DNA of 33,638 nt, taken from IMG/VR virus record IMGVR_UViG_3300041583_000188, positions 1-33,638 of that record; one strand, written 5' to 3'. The notes below the pieces were generated by a model, which searched no databases, had not been told where the DNA came from, and saw only the letters and a list, made by a program, of their open reading frames with translations. Made by a program: the position numbers and the translations under genes. The DNA is from a virus. Of this stretch, positions 4,108 through 33,638 are shown in pieces. Position 1 is the first letter of the stretch. Each line of letters starts with the position of its first letter.

Positions 4108-6138
4108 ATGGCAACAAAAAAGCAAGATCAAGAACTAGTCGGCATCCACGCAGAGGCGTTGGCTCAGTTCGATGATATTCAGACAGCATTGAAGGATGAG
4201 CGTCTGCAATGCTTGCAAGACCGACGTTTCTACAGCATCTCAGGCGCTCAATGGGAAGGCCCGCTAGGCGAGATCTACGAGAACAAGCCCAAGTTCGAGG
4301 TCAACAAAGTTGCACTGGCGGTAATGCGGATCATCAGCGAGTACCGCAACAACCGGGTAACCGTTGACTACACGCCGAAGGACGGGACAAAAGCAGATGA
4401 GCTTGCTGACACCTGCGACGGACTGTACCGCGCAGATGAGCAGGACAGCGTGGCTGACGAAGCGTATGACAATGGGTTTGAAGAAGCTGTAGGTGGTGGT
4501 TTTGGCGCTTGGCGCTTGCGCACAAAGTACGAGGACGAGGAATCAGAAGACGACGACCGGCAGCGGGTGATTATTGAGCCGATCTTTGATGCCGATAGCT
4601 CGGTGTTCTTTGACCTCGACTCAAAGAGGATGGACAAGTCGGACGCCAAGTATTGCTACGTCATATTTTCTATGACGCGGGAGAGATACATTGAAGAGTT
4701 TGGCGACAATCCGACTGATTGGCCTAAGACCATTCATCAGCATGAGTTCGACTGGTCAACGCCTGATATGGTGTTTGTTGCCGAATACTACAAAGTCGAG
4801 ATGGTAAGTGAGACCATCCGGGTTTTTCAGGGCATCGACGGTGTTGAGGAAAAGTACCGCACAAAAGATTTTAAAGACGACCCGACGCTAGAGGAAACCC
4901 TGCTAGCCGTTGGCAAGACTGAGGTTAGAACCAAGCGCGTTAAGACTAAGCGGGTGCACAAATACATCTTGTCGGGCGGCAGGGTGCTGGAGGACGCGGG
5001 CTACATTGCGGGGAAGTGCATCCCAATCGTACCGGTGTACGGTAAGCGTTGGTTCGTGGACAACATAGAGCGTTGCATGGGCCATGTCCGGCTTGCCAAA
5101 GACGCCCAGCGGCTGAAGAATATGCAGCTATCAAAGCTGGGTGAGATCTCCGCATTGTCCAGCGTGGAGAAGCCAATCCTGACACCTGAGCAGGTTGCAG
5201 GCCATCAAGTGATGTGGAGCGAAGACAACCTTAAGGACTATCCTTACCTTCTCGTTAACCCGATCACAGGACCAGACGGCAGCCAGAGCATTACTGGGCC
5301 GATTGGGTACACCAAGCCGCCTACGATACCGCCTGCGATGGCTGCGCTGCTACAGATAACGGAGACTGACATGCAAGACATTCTGGGCAATCAGTCCCAG
5401 GGTGACAAGATCGTGTCCAACATTTCAGGCAAAGCTGTGGAGATGATCCAGCAGCGGCTCGATATGCAAACGTTTATCTACATGAGCAACTTCTCGAAAG
5501 CCATGAAGCGCAGCGGCGAGATCTGGCTAAGCATGGCCCGTGATGTTTACGTTGAGGAAGGTAGGCGCATGAAGGTAATCGCTGCAAACGATGTGACCGA
5601 CAGCGTGGAGCTTATGAAGCCCATGATCGACCCTGACACGGGTGAGATCAAGATGCAGAACAACATGGCCGATGCTGCTTTTGATGTCGCTGTTGATGTT
5701 GGTCCATCGTCTAGCAGCAAGCGCAGCGCCACTGTAAGCGCGCTTATGGGCATGATGCAAGTCACGCAAGACCCAGAGACGCTGAACGTGCTTGGTTCGA
5801 TGGCAATGATGAACATGGAAGGCGAGGGCATATCTGATGTGCGAGACTTCTTCCGAAATCGGCTTATCAAAATCGGCGTTATCAAGCCGACAGAAAAAGA
5901 GTCTCAAGAACTCATGGCAGAAATGCAAGGTCAGCCAGAAGATCCGAACTCTGTGTTCCTTAAGGCGGCAGCAGAAGAGGCGATTGCCAAGGCAGCGAAG
6001 GCCAAGGCCGATACGGTGGCAACGGTGGCAGACTCTGAACTTACGCGGGCCAAGACTATCGAGACGATGGCAGGCATTGAGCTGGACAGCCAAGCCCAGG
6101 CCATAGAGCTAGCTCAAGAAATCGGTGTCGGTGTGTAG
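4108..6138 (+). CDS. P22-like portal protein
   Basis: A 676-residue protein of P22 portal size. It has the N-terminal region typical of the family (FYSISGAQWEG, then KFEVNKVALAVMRIISEYRNNR near residues 60-80), a long acidic middle, KRWFVDNIERCMGHVRLAKDAQR near 310, and a helical C terminus rich in Ala/Glu (about 610-670) that could form the barrel-like tail. Portals form the dodecameric vertex through which DNA enters and leaves and to which gp4-like and gp10-like tail factors dock; both are encoded downstream. It starts 4 nt after terL. I am confident of the family. Confidence 0.93.
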   Translation: MATKKQDQELVGIHAEALAQFDDIQTALKDERLQCLQDRRFYSISGAQWEGPLGEIYENKPKFEVNKVALAVMRIISEYRNNRVTVDYTPKDGTKADELADTCDGLYRADEQDSVADEAYDNGFEEAVGGGFGAWRLRTKYEDEESEDDDRQRVIIEPIFDADSSVFFDLDSKRMDKSDAKYCYVIFSMTRERYIEEFGDNPTDWPKTIHQHEFDWSTPDMVFVAEYYKVEMVSETIRVFQGIDGVEEKYRTKDFKDDPTLEETLLAVGKTEVRTKRVKTKRVHKYILSGGRVLEDAGYIAGKCIPIVPVYGKRWFVDNIERCMGHVRLAKDAQRLKNMQLSKLGEISALSSVEKPILTPEQVAGHQVMWSEDNLKDYPYLLVNPITGPDGSQSITGPIGYTKPPTIPPAMAALLQITETDMQDILGNQSQGDKIVSNISGKAVEMIQQRLDMQTFIYMSNFSKAMKRSGEIWLSMARDVYVEEGRRMKVIAANDVTDSVELMKPMIDPDTGEIKMQNNMADAAFDVAVDVGPSSSSKRSATVSALMGMMQVTQDPETLNVLGSMAMMNMEGEGISDVRDFFRNRLIKIGVIKPTEKESQELMAEMQGQPEDPNSVFLKAAAEEAIAKAAKAKADTVATVADSELTRAKTIETMAGIELDSQAQAIELAQEIGVGV

Positions 6139-20834: not shown

Positions 20835-21307
20835 TATGGACACCCCTGATCCGCCCGTTGGTTGCGCCCATAGCTATTGCCATCTCACTTGCTGGGTGTG
20901 CATGGTACGCGCACAGCAGCGGGCATCGATCCGGGATGCAAGCTACCCAAGCGAAGTGGGACTCAGAGAAAGTGCGGACGCTGGAAGCGCAGGGCGAGCA
21001 GATCCTGATTGCGCAGATCCGCGAAGGCGAGCTGACGGCTCAGATGGACAAGTTGAAAAGGACGCACCGTGAACAAACGACTCGCATTGCTGCTGCCCAT
21101 GCTGATCTTGTTGACAGCCTGCGCGACAGGCCCGACCGTCCGAGTGATGGAGGTGTGCCAGAAGCCGCCACCGCTGGAGCTGGATGTACCGGCGCGGGAC
21201 TATTTGGCCCTGATGCGAGATTTCTTGCAGGGCTCGCTGCCGATGCCGCCAGACTACAGGCTGGATTCGACTCCTGCAAAGCTGCCCTCGATTCGCTGAC
21301 GCGGTGA
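20831..21307 (+). CDS. Rz: Rz-like spanin, inner-membrane subunit
   Basis: A 158-residue protein with one N-terminal membrane helix (LIRPLVAPIAIAISLAGCAWY, about 6-26) and a periplasmic coiled-coil region (KWDSEKVRTLEAQGEQILIAQIREGELTAQMDKLKRTH). That is the plan of lambda Rz (i-spanin). It works with the outer-membrane lipoprotein Rz1 to fuse the two membranes in the last lysis step. The ATG overlaps the endolysin stop. The lipoprotein gene is nested inside it in another frame, as in lambda. Confidence 0.87.
   Translation: MIWTPLIRPLVAPIAIAISLAGCAWYAHSSGHRSGMQATQAKWDSEKVRTLEAQGEQILIAQIREGELTAQMDKLKRTHREQTTRIAAAHADLVDSLRDRPDRPSDGGVPEAATAGAGCTGAGLFGPDARFLAGLAADAARLQAGFDSCKAALDSLTR
21069..21299 (+). 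CDS. Rz1: Rz1-like spanin lipoprotein, nested in Rz
   Basis: A 76-residue lipoprotein lying wholly inside the Rz gene in a different frame. It starts at GTG and has a signal peptide ending in the lipobox LTAC (15-18), so Cys18 would be lipidated. The mature part has a PPP motif (QKPPPLELDVPARDY) and several more prolines, typical of Rz1 o-spanins. It pairs with the Rz periplasmic region. The nested arrangement is a strong sign that the call is right. Confidence 0.88.
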   Translation: MNKRLALLLPMLILLTACATGPTVRVMEVCQKPPPLELDVPARDYLALMRDFLQGSLPMPPDYRLDSTPAKLPSIR

Positions 21308-21309
21308 TA

Positions 21310-21318
21310 TGGCATAAT
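21310..21318 (+). promoter_or_regulatory. Extended -10 promoter for the structured RNA
   Basis: TGg-CATAAT, an extended -10 with a 5/6 hexamer, lies just after the Rz stop and before the long non-coding region. No good -35 is visible, which extended -10 promoters can tolerate. Start would fall near 21325. Confidence 0.5.
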
Positions 21319-21555
21319 GCGCACCAGTGGCGCATGAGTGCCATCACAAAAGCCGAAGGCGAGAAAAGTCGAAGATCGCAGGCAGCACACTTCGGTGTGT
21401 CCAGGGCGCAGCCAGAAATGGAGCAAGCGCCCGCACAGCAGCGAACGCACTGCCGGTTTTTGTGATGGTCGGCATGAGTGCTATCAAGAGGGCTCATTGT
21501 CTGGCTCGTAGCCAGGACGGGCACGTAGTGTCCGGATGGGATTCAGTGAGCCACC

Positions 21556-21635
21556 TTGATGGTCAAGCCCGTAAATAGCCTACCCGGCCCCAAGGAACGG
21601 TATCAAAGTCGGTGCAATCCGATGCTGCCATCAAC
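21556..21635 (+). repeat. RNA module, copy 1
   Basis: About 80 nt closed by UUGAUGG (21556-21562) and CCAUCAA (21628-21634). It contains AAGCCCGUAAAUAGCC, GGCCCCAAGGAACGG and AGUCGGUGCAAUCCGAUGCU, all repeated in copy 2. Its inner hairpin is GCC-UACCC-GGC. Confidence 0.85.
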
Positions 21636-21795
21636 TTTTTAGCGGAATGCACGGGCTGACGTGCGAGTGCCTGCAAAACCGTGGAGCAACGGCTTGACCG
21701 CCGCCACATGCCGGGATCAGCTCCGGCCCGCTACCCGATGGCATGACCAGCACCCGCAGCAGGGTTCACCCTCGTGGTGCTGGCTTGCCGACCTT

Positions 21796-21873
21796 TTGAT
21801 GACAAGCCCGTAAATAGCCGCAAGGCCCCAAGGAACGGTTCCGAAGTCGGTGCAATCCGATGCTGCCATCAAC
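21796..21873 (+). repeat. RNA module, copy 2
   Basis: About 78 nt closed by UUGAUG (21796-21801) and CAUCAA (21867-21872). It is nearly identical to copy 1. Differences are confined to the closing-stem edge, the hairpin loop (here GCC-GCAA-GGC, a GNRA loop) and a short UUCCG/UAUCAA segment. It ends 3 nt before the terminator stem. Confidence 0.85.
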
Positions 21874-21875
21874 CC

Positions 21876-21907
21876 AAAAGCCCGCCAGGAAACTGAGCGG
21901 GCTTTTT
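21876..21907 (+). terminator. Intrinsic terminator of the structured RNA
   Basis: Stem AAAGCCCGC-CAG / CTG-a-GCGGGCTTT with a GAAA tetraloop, followed by TTCTT. One A is bulged. The preceding A run makes it usable in both directions, which would also shield the RNA from leftward transcription. Confidence 0.9.
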
Positions 21908-21930
21908 CTTGCCTGCGGGCAAGGCGTGAT

Positions 21931-22151
21931 GTTTGGCGTAAGGTTTGAGAATTTGAGGCAATTCTCATAGTGCGGTACAGCTCTGCCATTGAGCTACACC
22001 CGCATTCTGTAACCCATTGATCTGTCACGGGTTTTTCTCTTTTTGGCCTGTTCTCCCTATGAAGAACCTACGCCGGGCCGACTGTATTGGCGTAACCCCA
22101 CTTGTCTACGCAGCATCTACACTTGCGCTGCTGGCGTAGGGTTTGGCGTAG
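21931..22151. other. Probable phage attachment site (attP) with integrase arm-type repeats
   Basis: A TTGGCGTA word occurs at 21933-21940, 22087-22094 and 22143-22150; close variants are CTGGCGTA at 22131-22138 and inverted TACGCCGG at 22069-22076. They flank a central segment (21946-22003) holding an 8-bp perfect hairpin and a tRNA 5'-half. Repeats on both sides of a tRNA-derived core, directly upstream of int, are the layout of tyrosine-recombinase attP sites. The 300 bp from 21908 to 22217 hold no gene. Confidence 0.65.
21971..22003 (-). pseudogene. tRNA-Gly-like 5' half (probable att core)
   Basis: Read leftward from 22003: GCGGGTG (acceptor strand), TA, D-stem GCTC, loop AATGGCA, GAGC. 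This is the acceptor plus D-arm of a bacterial tRNA resembling tRNA-Gly. No anticodon arm, T-arm or 3' acceptor follows, so it is not a working tRNA. Instead the next bases (TGTACCGCA) pair back on the acceptor and D-stem strand, making one long imperfect hairpin. It is best explained as the part of the attachment core shared with a host tRNA gene. Confidence 0.6.
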
Positions 22152-22217: not shown

Positions 22218-23456
22218 ATGTTCTTTGATGCCCGTGCGGCCAAGCTGCTGACGCCTGGGTCACACCTTGTGATTCCCGGTTGCCCCGGCCTGCGCCTGGT
22301 GGCCACTGCGACCACGCGCGCCTGGGTGTACCGATTCAAAGATTCAGCCGGGCTGATGAAGCAAACCAAGATCGGCCTGTGGCCCGCGATGCCAGCAGCC
22401 AGCGCGGCGGCAAAGTGGCAGGCGCTTCGGGATGCGCGGGCCAGCGGTGAAGACGTGCAGGCGATCCAGCGGCCAAAGCCTACGCCCAAAACCTACGCTG
22501 TGGCCGACTTGGTGAACGACTACATCACCGGCCATGTGCGCGAGCGCCGGGGGGAAGCGGGCGCACTGGCGTCAGAGCGGGCGCTGTTGCGGTTTCTGGC
22601 CGAGTCGCATGTGCTGGCCCGCAAGCAAGCGGCAAGCGTCACCAGGGCCGACTGCTTCGATGCGCTGGACGCACGCAAGGCCACGCCCACGGCTGCGATG
22701 CACCTACGCGCCCTGCTGGGTGCCGCGTGGGATTACGCGCTCGACTCAGGCCGGTTGACCGAGGCGCCAAACTGGTGGCGGCTGGTCATGCGTGGCAGGC
22801 TCAAAAGCAAAGGCAAGATCGTTGGTGGTGTGCACCTCGGCACGGCCAAGCGTGTGCTGACGATTGCCGAGGTGCGCGAGCTGCTGGCGTGGTTGCCGAA
22901 CATGCACAGCCTGGGGCGCGACGTGACGCTGCTTTACCTGATGACGTGCTGCCGGGGTGGCGAGATTGTCAGGATGCGCCCGGAACACATCAAGCGCGAG
23001 GGCGCGGTGTGGTGGTGGACCATCCCGGCGTCGCTCACGAAAAACGCGGGCAACCCGAGGGCGGTGGATCACCGGGTGCCGCTGCTGGGCAGGGCGCTGG
23101 AGGTGGTGCAGCGCCGCGTGGGTGGCGTGGGTGAATCGGGCTGGCTATTCTGGACTGAGCGCGGCGGTCAGTACACGCAGAACGATTTCAGCACCTACCT
23201 TTACAGCCTGCACCCGGACAGCGCAAAGTCACGGGCGCGGCAAGGCGAGGGGCTGGCCTTGCCGGTGCTGGGCTGGACGGCCCACGATCTGCGCCGCACC
23301 GGGCGCACACTGCTGGCAGAGATGGGGTGCCCGCAGGAAGTGGCCGAAGCGATCCTGGGGCACCTGCCCAGCGTGATAGTTGGGACGTACAACCGCAGCT
23401 CCTACGATGCGCAGCGGGTGGAGTGGCTGGGGCGGCTCAGTCAGGCGCTGGGGTAG
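22218..23456 (+). CDS. int: Tyrosine integrase (site-specific recombinase)
   Basis: A 412-residue integrase. The N terminus (LLTPGSHLVIPGCPGLRLVATATTRAWVYRFKDSAG...IGLWPAM) resembles the DUF4102-type arm-binding domain of P4-like integrases. A SAM-like core-binding domain spans about 90-185. The catalytic set is R246 (CCRGGEIVRM), K275 (SLTKNAG), H356 and R359 (WTAHDLRRTGR), H382 (ILGHLPS) and the nucleophile Y391 (VGTYNRSS). It integrates the phage at the matching host tRNA and, with a directionality factor, excises it. The attP-like region lies just upstream. Its 3' end overlaps the convergent FtsK-gamma-like gene by 20 bp. Confidence 0.95.
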   Translation: MFFDARAAKLLTPGSHLVIPGCPGLRLVATATTRAWVYRFKDSAGLMKQTKIGLWPAMPAASAAAKWQALRDARASGEDVQAIQRPKPTPKTYAVADLVNDYITGHVRERRGEAGALASERALLRFLAESHVLARKQAASVTRADCFDALDARKATPTAAMHLRALLGAAWDYALDSGRLTEAPNWWRLVMRGRLKSKGKIVGGVHLGTAKRVLTIAEVRELLAWLPNMHSLGRDVTLLYLMTCCRGGEIVRMRPEHIKREGAVWWWTIPASLTKNAGNPRAVDHRVPLLGRALEVVQRRVGGVGESGWLFWTERGGQYTQNDFSTYLYSLHPDSAKSRARQGEGLALPVLGWTAHDLRRTGRTLLAEMGCPQEVAEAILGHLPSVIVGTYNRSSYDAQRVEWLGRLSQALG

Positions 23457-33388: not shown

Positions 33389-33638
33389 ATGATCGCCTTC
33401 CCCAAAACCGTAGCCGCCCGCTCAGAAGCCTACCGCCGCTTGGTGGCCGCGATGCCCTGCCGGTCCTGCGGCATCCAGGGCAGCAGCCAGGCGGCGCACC
33501 CGAACAGCGGGAAGGCAAAGGGCGCGAAGGCCGACGACAGAGCAGTGTTTGCACTCTGTGCCGCCCGACCAGGCATCAAAGGCTGTCATCAAAAGTTCGA
33601 CCAGTACGAGCTGGGCGGCAGGCACGCGCAAGCACTCA
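33389..33638 (+). CDS. HNH-like zinc-binding nuclease, 5' part
   Basis: The first 83 codons of the gene that continues at 1-219 once the circle is closed. It starts MIAFPKTVAARSEAYRRLVAAMPCRSC. A GGAGG element precedes the ATG at good spacing. The Cys/His set that defines the likely nuclease domain (CRSC, AAHPN, ALCAAR, GCHQKFD) falls in this part. The contig end cuts the gene; there is no natural truncation. Confidence 0.75.
   Translation, partial: MIAFPKTVAARSEAYRRLVAAMPCRSCGIQGSSQAAHPNSGKAKGAKADDRAVFALCAARPGIKGCHQKFDQYELGGRHAQAL
33512..33638. repeat. Direct terminal overlap, right copy
   Basis: Identical to 1-127. Removing one copy leaves a 33,511-bp circle with an intact gene across the join. 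Confidence 0.93.

Follow-up and report, generated by a model that had tools for sequence, protein, structure and literature searches.

Positions 21325-21907 of the window (the whole 33,638-nt stretch of DNA analysed here) probably encode a structured, non-coding RNA. It is built from six closed domains of ~50-130 nt rather than from one 580-nt fold, and two of its domain types, modules A and B, have relatives beyond the nearest phages. We read module B as a new sister family of the prophage small RNAs STnc100 and PasD; the window RNA is, in this reading, a multi-domain array built from modules of that sort. We are very confident of the anatomy, a modular and structured non-coding RNA that contains modules A and B. 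RNAs of this kind are known already, and their spread is much wider than the betaproteobacterial podoviruses.

The RNA gene and its boundaries

The source genome, an IMG/VR virus record, is that of a P22-like podovirus with portal and coat proteins of the P22 families, and the RNA gene sits between the spanin genes and the integrase. The predicted fold of 21325-21907 has an energy of -247.8 kcal/mol, whereas shuffles average -216.7 (z -4.45) and 0 of 100 reach as good a value; the minus strand gives z -2.40 in the same test. This supports the large structured non-coding RNA proposed in a preliminary description of the segment, which had also found no credible ORF there. None of the ORFs within 21325-21907 has a family match, the longest on the same strand (83 aa, 21327-21578) has no Pfam match, and the minus-strand ORFs across the segment are mechanical. 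The transcript is bounded by two predicted elements:

21310-21318, plus strand: extended -10 promoter TGG-CATAAT, recognized from the sequence, with the RNA start expected near 21325
21876-21911, plus strand: intrinsic terminator, a hairpin followed by a T-run (z -4.35); an equal hairpin of other bases in the related contig L014

Both elements had been described before, one at each end, and both stand, as do the reported UUCG and GAAA tetraloops, present in CACUUCGGUG and in the GAAA-capped terminator. The promoter has no good -35 element and is omitted from a sigma-70 scan for that reason. It belongs to a 28-nt block, GACGCGGTGATNTGGCATANTGCGCACC, common to the contigs L005, L007 and L014; four related phages share the promoter, and the block is kept even where the downstream sequence diverges. 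The terminator hairpin itself spans 21876-21906 and is followed by TTTTTCTT; its bases differ in L014, with the hairpin structure kept.

Downstream of the gene, the minus strand of 21972-22007 reads GCGGGTGTAGCTCAATGGCAGAGCTGTACCGCACTA and resembles the 5' part of a tRNA-Gly gene. Judged by this likeness the segment is a probable attP core, and the prophage form would put the RNA gene at its extreme edge. The ends of the window are repeated, ~33510-33638 matching 1 to ~125 (reading frame KAKGAKADDRAVF...), as in a circularly closed contig.

Domain architecture and exchange between phages

The domains follow one another in the order M1-M2-A-B-C-A, ahead of the terminator:

21341-21468, plus strand: M1, closed by the 15-nt inverted repeat 21341-21355/21454-21468, with a UUCG hairpin inside (z -4.50)
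21472-21557, plus strand: M2 (GGGCTCATTG..CAGTGAGCC), z -2.48; replaced along with A1 in L007
21555-21635, plus strand: module A, copy 1 (A1), 88.8 bits and E 2.5e-25 with covariance model R2, which was built from six module A copies, both window copies included; covariation
21638-21735, plus strand: module B, 61.7 bits and E 1e-13 with covariance model R1, which includes a near-identical copy of this module; covariation
21740-21789, plus strand: domain C, the long hairpin GACCAGCACC..GGTGCTGG (z -3.86)
21795-21873, plus strand: module A, copy 2 (A2), 88.7 bits and E 2.7e-25 with the same model R2

The repeat that closes M1 is the long-range arm of the preliminary description, which was real but given too short at 11 bp: it is 15 nt long and 93% complementary. 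A 50-nt direct repeat (94%) and a 17-nt one (100%), spaced by 238-239, had been overlooked; they are the two copies of module A, and gave the first hint of modules. Folded in isolation, A1 and B adopt most of their covariation-supported helices. M1, M2 and C, three of the six window domains, occur only in the nearest phages, and M1 had no match in phage records beyond these relatives.

Comparison with the nearest relatives reveals how the array varies. L007 is identical to the window over M1, C and A2 and nearly so over B, and carries other sequence over 21472-21640, replacing M2 and A1 exactly between domain boundaries. In L014 the layout is promoter block, 48-aa ORF, B, B, A and terminator. 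These layouts show that the domains are exchanged between phages as whole units at their boundaries. When the whole RNA was compared with phages and plasmids by blastn, only fragments were returned, the single real match being the plasmid pBVIE05 (two 21-nt conserved pieces). The neighbouring lysozyme was rejected as a bait, the relatives L020-L022 running directly into structural genes with the RNA absent.

The ORF of L014 (10564-10709; MKAGLYANINAKQ..., phrog_16028, function unknown) stands where the first RNA domains would be. A CRISPR array resembling type I-E (GTGTTCCCCACAGGCGTGGGGATGAACCG) closes the L007 contig (12176-12612). Its first repeat is preceded by 32 nt that equal window positions 21847-21878, within A2, and another spacer matches the integrase at 22818-22849 with 4 mismatches; both have an AAG PAM. 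On account of these matches a phage-borne array was rejected, and the array is probably an assembly join to that of a host, whose spacers would target this phage family and, in one case, the RNA gene.

Structure and covariation of module B

Module B of the window is composed of three helices and a loop-loop contact:

21640-21645/21728-21733, plus strand: helix P1, the closing helix
21648-21653/21660-21665, plus strand: helix P2, a D-arm-like hairpin
21710-21714/21723-21727, plus strand: helix P3, a T-arm-like hairpin
21655-21659 with 21717-21721, plus strand: loop-loop ('kissing') pairing of complementary loops

The layout is P1, 2 nt, the P2 hairpin, a variable part, the 5-bp P3 hairpin, 0 nt and P1', and the insert between P2 and P3 varies in both length and sequence. 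Scans of IMG/VR for the conserved first hairpin returned at least 120 contigs, and 149 sites yielded 94 distinct modules with the closing helix and the second hairpin. The closing helix and P3 are present at 109 of 132 P2 sites, compared with 18 of 2640 random sites. In an alignment of 34 sequences, 95.1% of cells are paired and 14 of the 24 pairs have changed on both sides. Shuffles score 0.116 and slid structures no more than 0.113, compared with a covariation score of 0.358 for the alignment; the contribution of P1 and P3 to it is biased upwards because both were required at extraction. The inner pairs of P2, which the first scan left unconstrained and the second constrained in part, covary too.

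The P2 hexaloop, GGCUGA, is complementary to UCAGC of the P3 loop. When P3 served as the anchor of a scan that left its loop and P2 unconstrained, pairing of at least 4 bp between the loops is retained in 41 of 42 distinct loop pairs. Shuffling the 21 unusual loop pairs (20 observed; shuffle mean 17.2, maximum 20) is a weak test because most of them share common loops, and the weight is carried by the compensated variants UGGUG/CACCA (L237), GGUGA/UCACC (L310) and UUGC/GCAA (L269, L301, L309 and L318). The window module (21638-21735) has the features that define R1, namely covariation in P1, P2 and P3 together with loop complementarity.

The inserts fold on average no better than their shuffles (z -0.34) and may be functionless spacers. 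ARAGORN places a tRNA-Pro within the insert of two modules (L097, 522-745; L130, 3006-3225), as in the linker of GOLLD; these nested tRNAs, called by ARAGORN alone and unconfirmed at the Rfam gathering score, were rejected. Four sequences have a long hairpin, CACAACAGGTAAGRGCA..TGCTCTTWCCGTTGTG, upstream of B: P1 (L174 3918-4010), ep3 (L226 2930-3010), IME207 (L227 2916-3006) and an E. coli prophage (L225 3936-4010). The 3' strand of this hairpin overlaps the 5' strand of the B closing helix, and the two may be mutually exclusive.

Distribution of module B

More than 90 distinct B modules are found in IMG/VR, and carriers include P1 (two copies), the Klebsiella phage KP6 (Ackermannviridae), mEp460, IME207, ep3 and the B. 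vietnamiensis plasmid pBVIE05. In P1 the two copies directly follow tRNA-Asn and tRNA-Thr and are succeeded by an STnc100-like module; KP6 has one copy in a 3-kb stretch free of annotated genes, ahead of a tRNA array and in tandem with STnc100. The single copy of IME207 is immediately upstream of two tRNAs, and the two copies of the Burkholderia plasmid come after a tRNA. P1-type B sequence is present in 840 of 5,426 complete E. coli genomes (~15%); 707 of the places are chromosomal and 236 are on plasmids. Of the 25 matches listed, none coincides with an annotated feature. In prophages the sequence sits between genes, for instance in the gap separating antiterminator and holin or in one upstream of yfdP.

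ORFs of at least 100 aa cover 43% of B sites, as against 81% of random sites. A tRNA lies within 1 kb of 16 of 89 modules, as against 6% of random sites, and the neighbourhood is same-strand in 16 of 17 cases. Module B is phage-linked, since its pattern in host genomes (one order and one class sampled: 3 of 399 Burkholderiales and 3 of 369 Gammaproteobacteria) is at the level of the reversed-pattern control; a covariance-model search of 7 genomes, scoring part of the candidates, found none. P1 (L174 3288-3393) and KP6 (L175 3579-3844) also contain tmRNA-like stretches with the tag frames ANDDLMMVAA* and ANDNTFLAVA*, which score 26 and 23 bits with Rfam tmRNA_permuted, under the cut-off of 47.

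The suggestion of a new class in betaproteobacterial podoviruses holds in so far as the phage carrying the RNA is P22-like and modules A and B lie outside every Rfam family. It falls short in scale and range: the conserved units are domains of ~80-130 nt, and module B spans very different phages as well as E. coli prophages.

Module A

Both window copies of module A contain CCGUAAAUA..AAGGAACGG..GUGCAAU with covariation in P1, P2b and P3, the combination that defines R2. Outside the window family, the only carriers of module A found were L166, L169 and L172, in which it lies between the acceptor and coding pieces of a permuted phage tmRNA. Of the 20 pairs, 12 have changes on both sides across six copies, of window type and tmRNA type, although the copies form two sequence groups and the changes therefore represent few independent events. 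Permuted tmRNA (RF01850, RF04321) thus resembles the window in holding A as its intervening segment in these three contigs, but no tmRNA pieces flank the window copies. Covarying helices among homologues, whose absence the preliminary description had named as evidence against an RNA, are accordingly present for both B and A.

A 16-nt A motif by itself was rejected as a marker: among the 13 IMG/VR contigs containing it, a real module A is confined to L005 and L007, the other 11 having none. Among GTDB genomes, 40 pattern matches included 0 real A modules.

Comparison with known RNAs

The window as a whole has 0 Rfam matches at gathering score. Over 21100-22100 at E<=5 nothing credible was returned, only Trp_leader (2.2) and Bp2_287 (4.3), both attributable to chance. 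The absence of a covariance-model match rules out ROOL, GOLLD, OLE and any other Rfam family, so the earlier proposal of a divergent ROOL or GOLLD does not survive the scan. ROOL (Rumen-Originating, Ornate, Large) is like the window RNA in its size of ~580 nt and its prophage setting, and differs in that domain order varies among relatives of the window. GOLLD shares a phage location, a length of several hundred nucleotides, a tRNA-island setting and a variable beside a conserved part, but the window has exchangeable domains instead of one conserved fold. No tRNA was found in the window by ARAGORN or RF00005. The species 1 and 2 stable RNAs of T4 (rnaC and rnaD) are small, at 119-139 nt, and lie within a phage tRNA cluster; they are unmatched by the A model, and were rejected as relatives of B, the best B-model score being 4.3 bits (E 3) and falling off rnaC/rnaD.

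The closest likeness of module B is to STnc100 (RF02076) and PasD, prophage small RNAs of Gammaproteobacteria. They share with B a closing helix ..GGUG/CACC.., AAU, a hexaloop hairpin, a variable part and a 5-bp hairpin abutting the closing helix, and B follows their core plan throughout (P1 - AAU - hairpin - variable - 5-bp hairpin - 0 nt - P1'). They also share its phage location, and stand in tandem with B in P1 and KP6. RF02076 matches KP6 5007-5220 above the gathering score; on P1 4693-4813 it reaches 33.9 bits (E 5e-4), below the gathering score of 47. The B model in turn aligns end to end with the STnc100-like core, a distant structural match of 20.7 bits in P1 and 14.4 bits in KP6, obtained with filters off when the model was run on two chosen stretches (301 and 261 nt). 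In contrast, RF02076 has no match to B in the window (E<=5) or in P1, KP6, ep3 and IME207 (E<=0.5); the loops of STnc100 and PasD differ, lacking the GCUGA/UCAGC pair, and both have been described as single small RNAs whereas the window RNA has six domains.

Pas small RNAs are prophage-encoded, bound by Hfq and paired with targets according to RIL-seq and confirmed by northern blot, and a common ancestry of PasD and STnc100 has been inferred despite their different seeds (PMC13192938, a 2026 preprint from the Storz laboratory). STnc100_4 was detected by northern blot in EHEC (PMC5331693). The shared plan, the end-to-end match of the B model and this ancestry with different seeds underlie our reading of B as a sister family; common descent of B and STnc100/PasD is likely. 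A literature search for the B core sequence, confined to an open collection without most subscription journals, returned no paper that contains it.

Proposed function and alternatives

We propose that one transcript of ~580 nt would be made from its own promoter behind the spanin genes up to its own terminator, as a series of independently closed RNA domains. Modules A and B belong to a repertoire of phage RNA modules, placed in tandem, often by tRNA or tmRNA genes, and exchanged as whole units. In B, the closing helix and two hairpins with paired loops form a scaffold with a variable insert. The domains would function like STnc100 and PasD, as small RNAs of a prophage. Their conserved scaffold would stabilize the RNA and be recognized by a factor that binds or processes RNA, and base-pairing with RNAs of the host or of rival phages would fall to the variable insert or to single-stranded parts. 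A base-pairing RNA is favoured because of the conserved scaffold with its variable insert, the promoter and terminator, the restriction to phages and the kinship with Hfq-bound small RNAs. We give this functional reading, an array of prophage small-RNA-like modules with a stable scaffold and a variable segment, slightly less than an even chance. An antisense role against the phage's own genome was rejected, the longest complementarity being 12 nt, at chance level.

Because of the tRNA-like layout and the tRNA/tmRNA neighbourhood, the main rival is that the domains are tRNA mimics that imitate the tRNA elbow (acceptor helix on T-arm, D-loop/T-loop pairing) and act as decoys, by which tRNA-cleaving defence nucleases, maturation enzymes or the ribosome-rescue machinery would be titrated or inhibited. 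The topology of B equals that of tRNA, D/T loop pairing included, tRNAs adjoin B in P1, KP6, IME207 and pBVIE05, and A lies inside permuted tmRNA genes. Against this reading, P1 varies from 5 to 14 bp, a 3' CCA is absent, the P3 loop has 8-9 nt and no UUCRA, and ARAGORN and the Rfam tRNA models call neither A nor B, the B regions of P1 and KP6 included. Most B loci have no detectable tRNA close by. We consider such decoys unlikely.

The same-strand orientation of the tRNA neighbours (16/17) and the position of A between two tmRNA pieces would also suit a role in stable-RNA operons as processing or insulating elements, with hairpins directing cleavage or shielding the ends of neighbouring tRNAs and tmRNAs. 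Such a role is quite improbable, given that the window array and most B loci are without a tRNA and that the window and L014 arrays have a promoter block and terminator of their own. In its size, its strong fold, its prophage setting and its bounds of promoter and terminator, the window RNA recalls an RNA-only assembly of the type of ROOL and GOLLD, which occur near tRNA islands and form cages (PMC12286853); the entire 580 nt would be one fold or a multimer, with loops perhaps pairing between molecules. Neither family has an Rfam match here, and a single cooperative fold would hardly tolerate the free exchange and reordering of domains among the window, L007 and L014, making this the least probable of the alternatives, at long odds.

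Returning to the array of small-RNA-like modules, we advance as a tentative and somewhat doubtful extension that the RNA cartridges B, A and STnc100/PasD may form one large unnamed superfamily common to phages of Proteobacteria. Each would combine a tRNA-elbow-like kissing-loop scaffold with a variable insert, and they would be arrayed and swapped like tRNA genes, serving as decoys or base-pairing effectors against the RNA systems of the host or of rival phages. Module B itself is a widespread unannotated fold, even in the well-studied P1, and its presence there and in E. coli genomes makes its function testable in K-12. Its defined fold comes with a variable segment, for which targets can be sought, and it ties isolated prophage small RNAs such as STnc100 and PasD to a modular RNA system that extends across phage families and proteobacterial classes.
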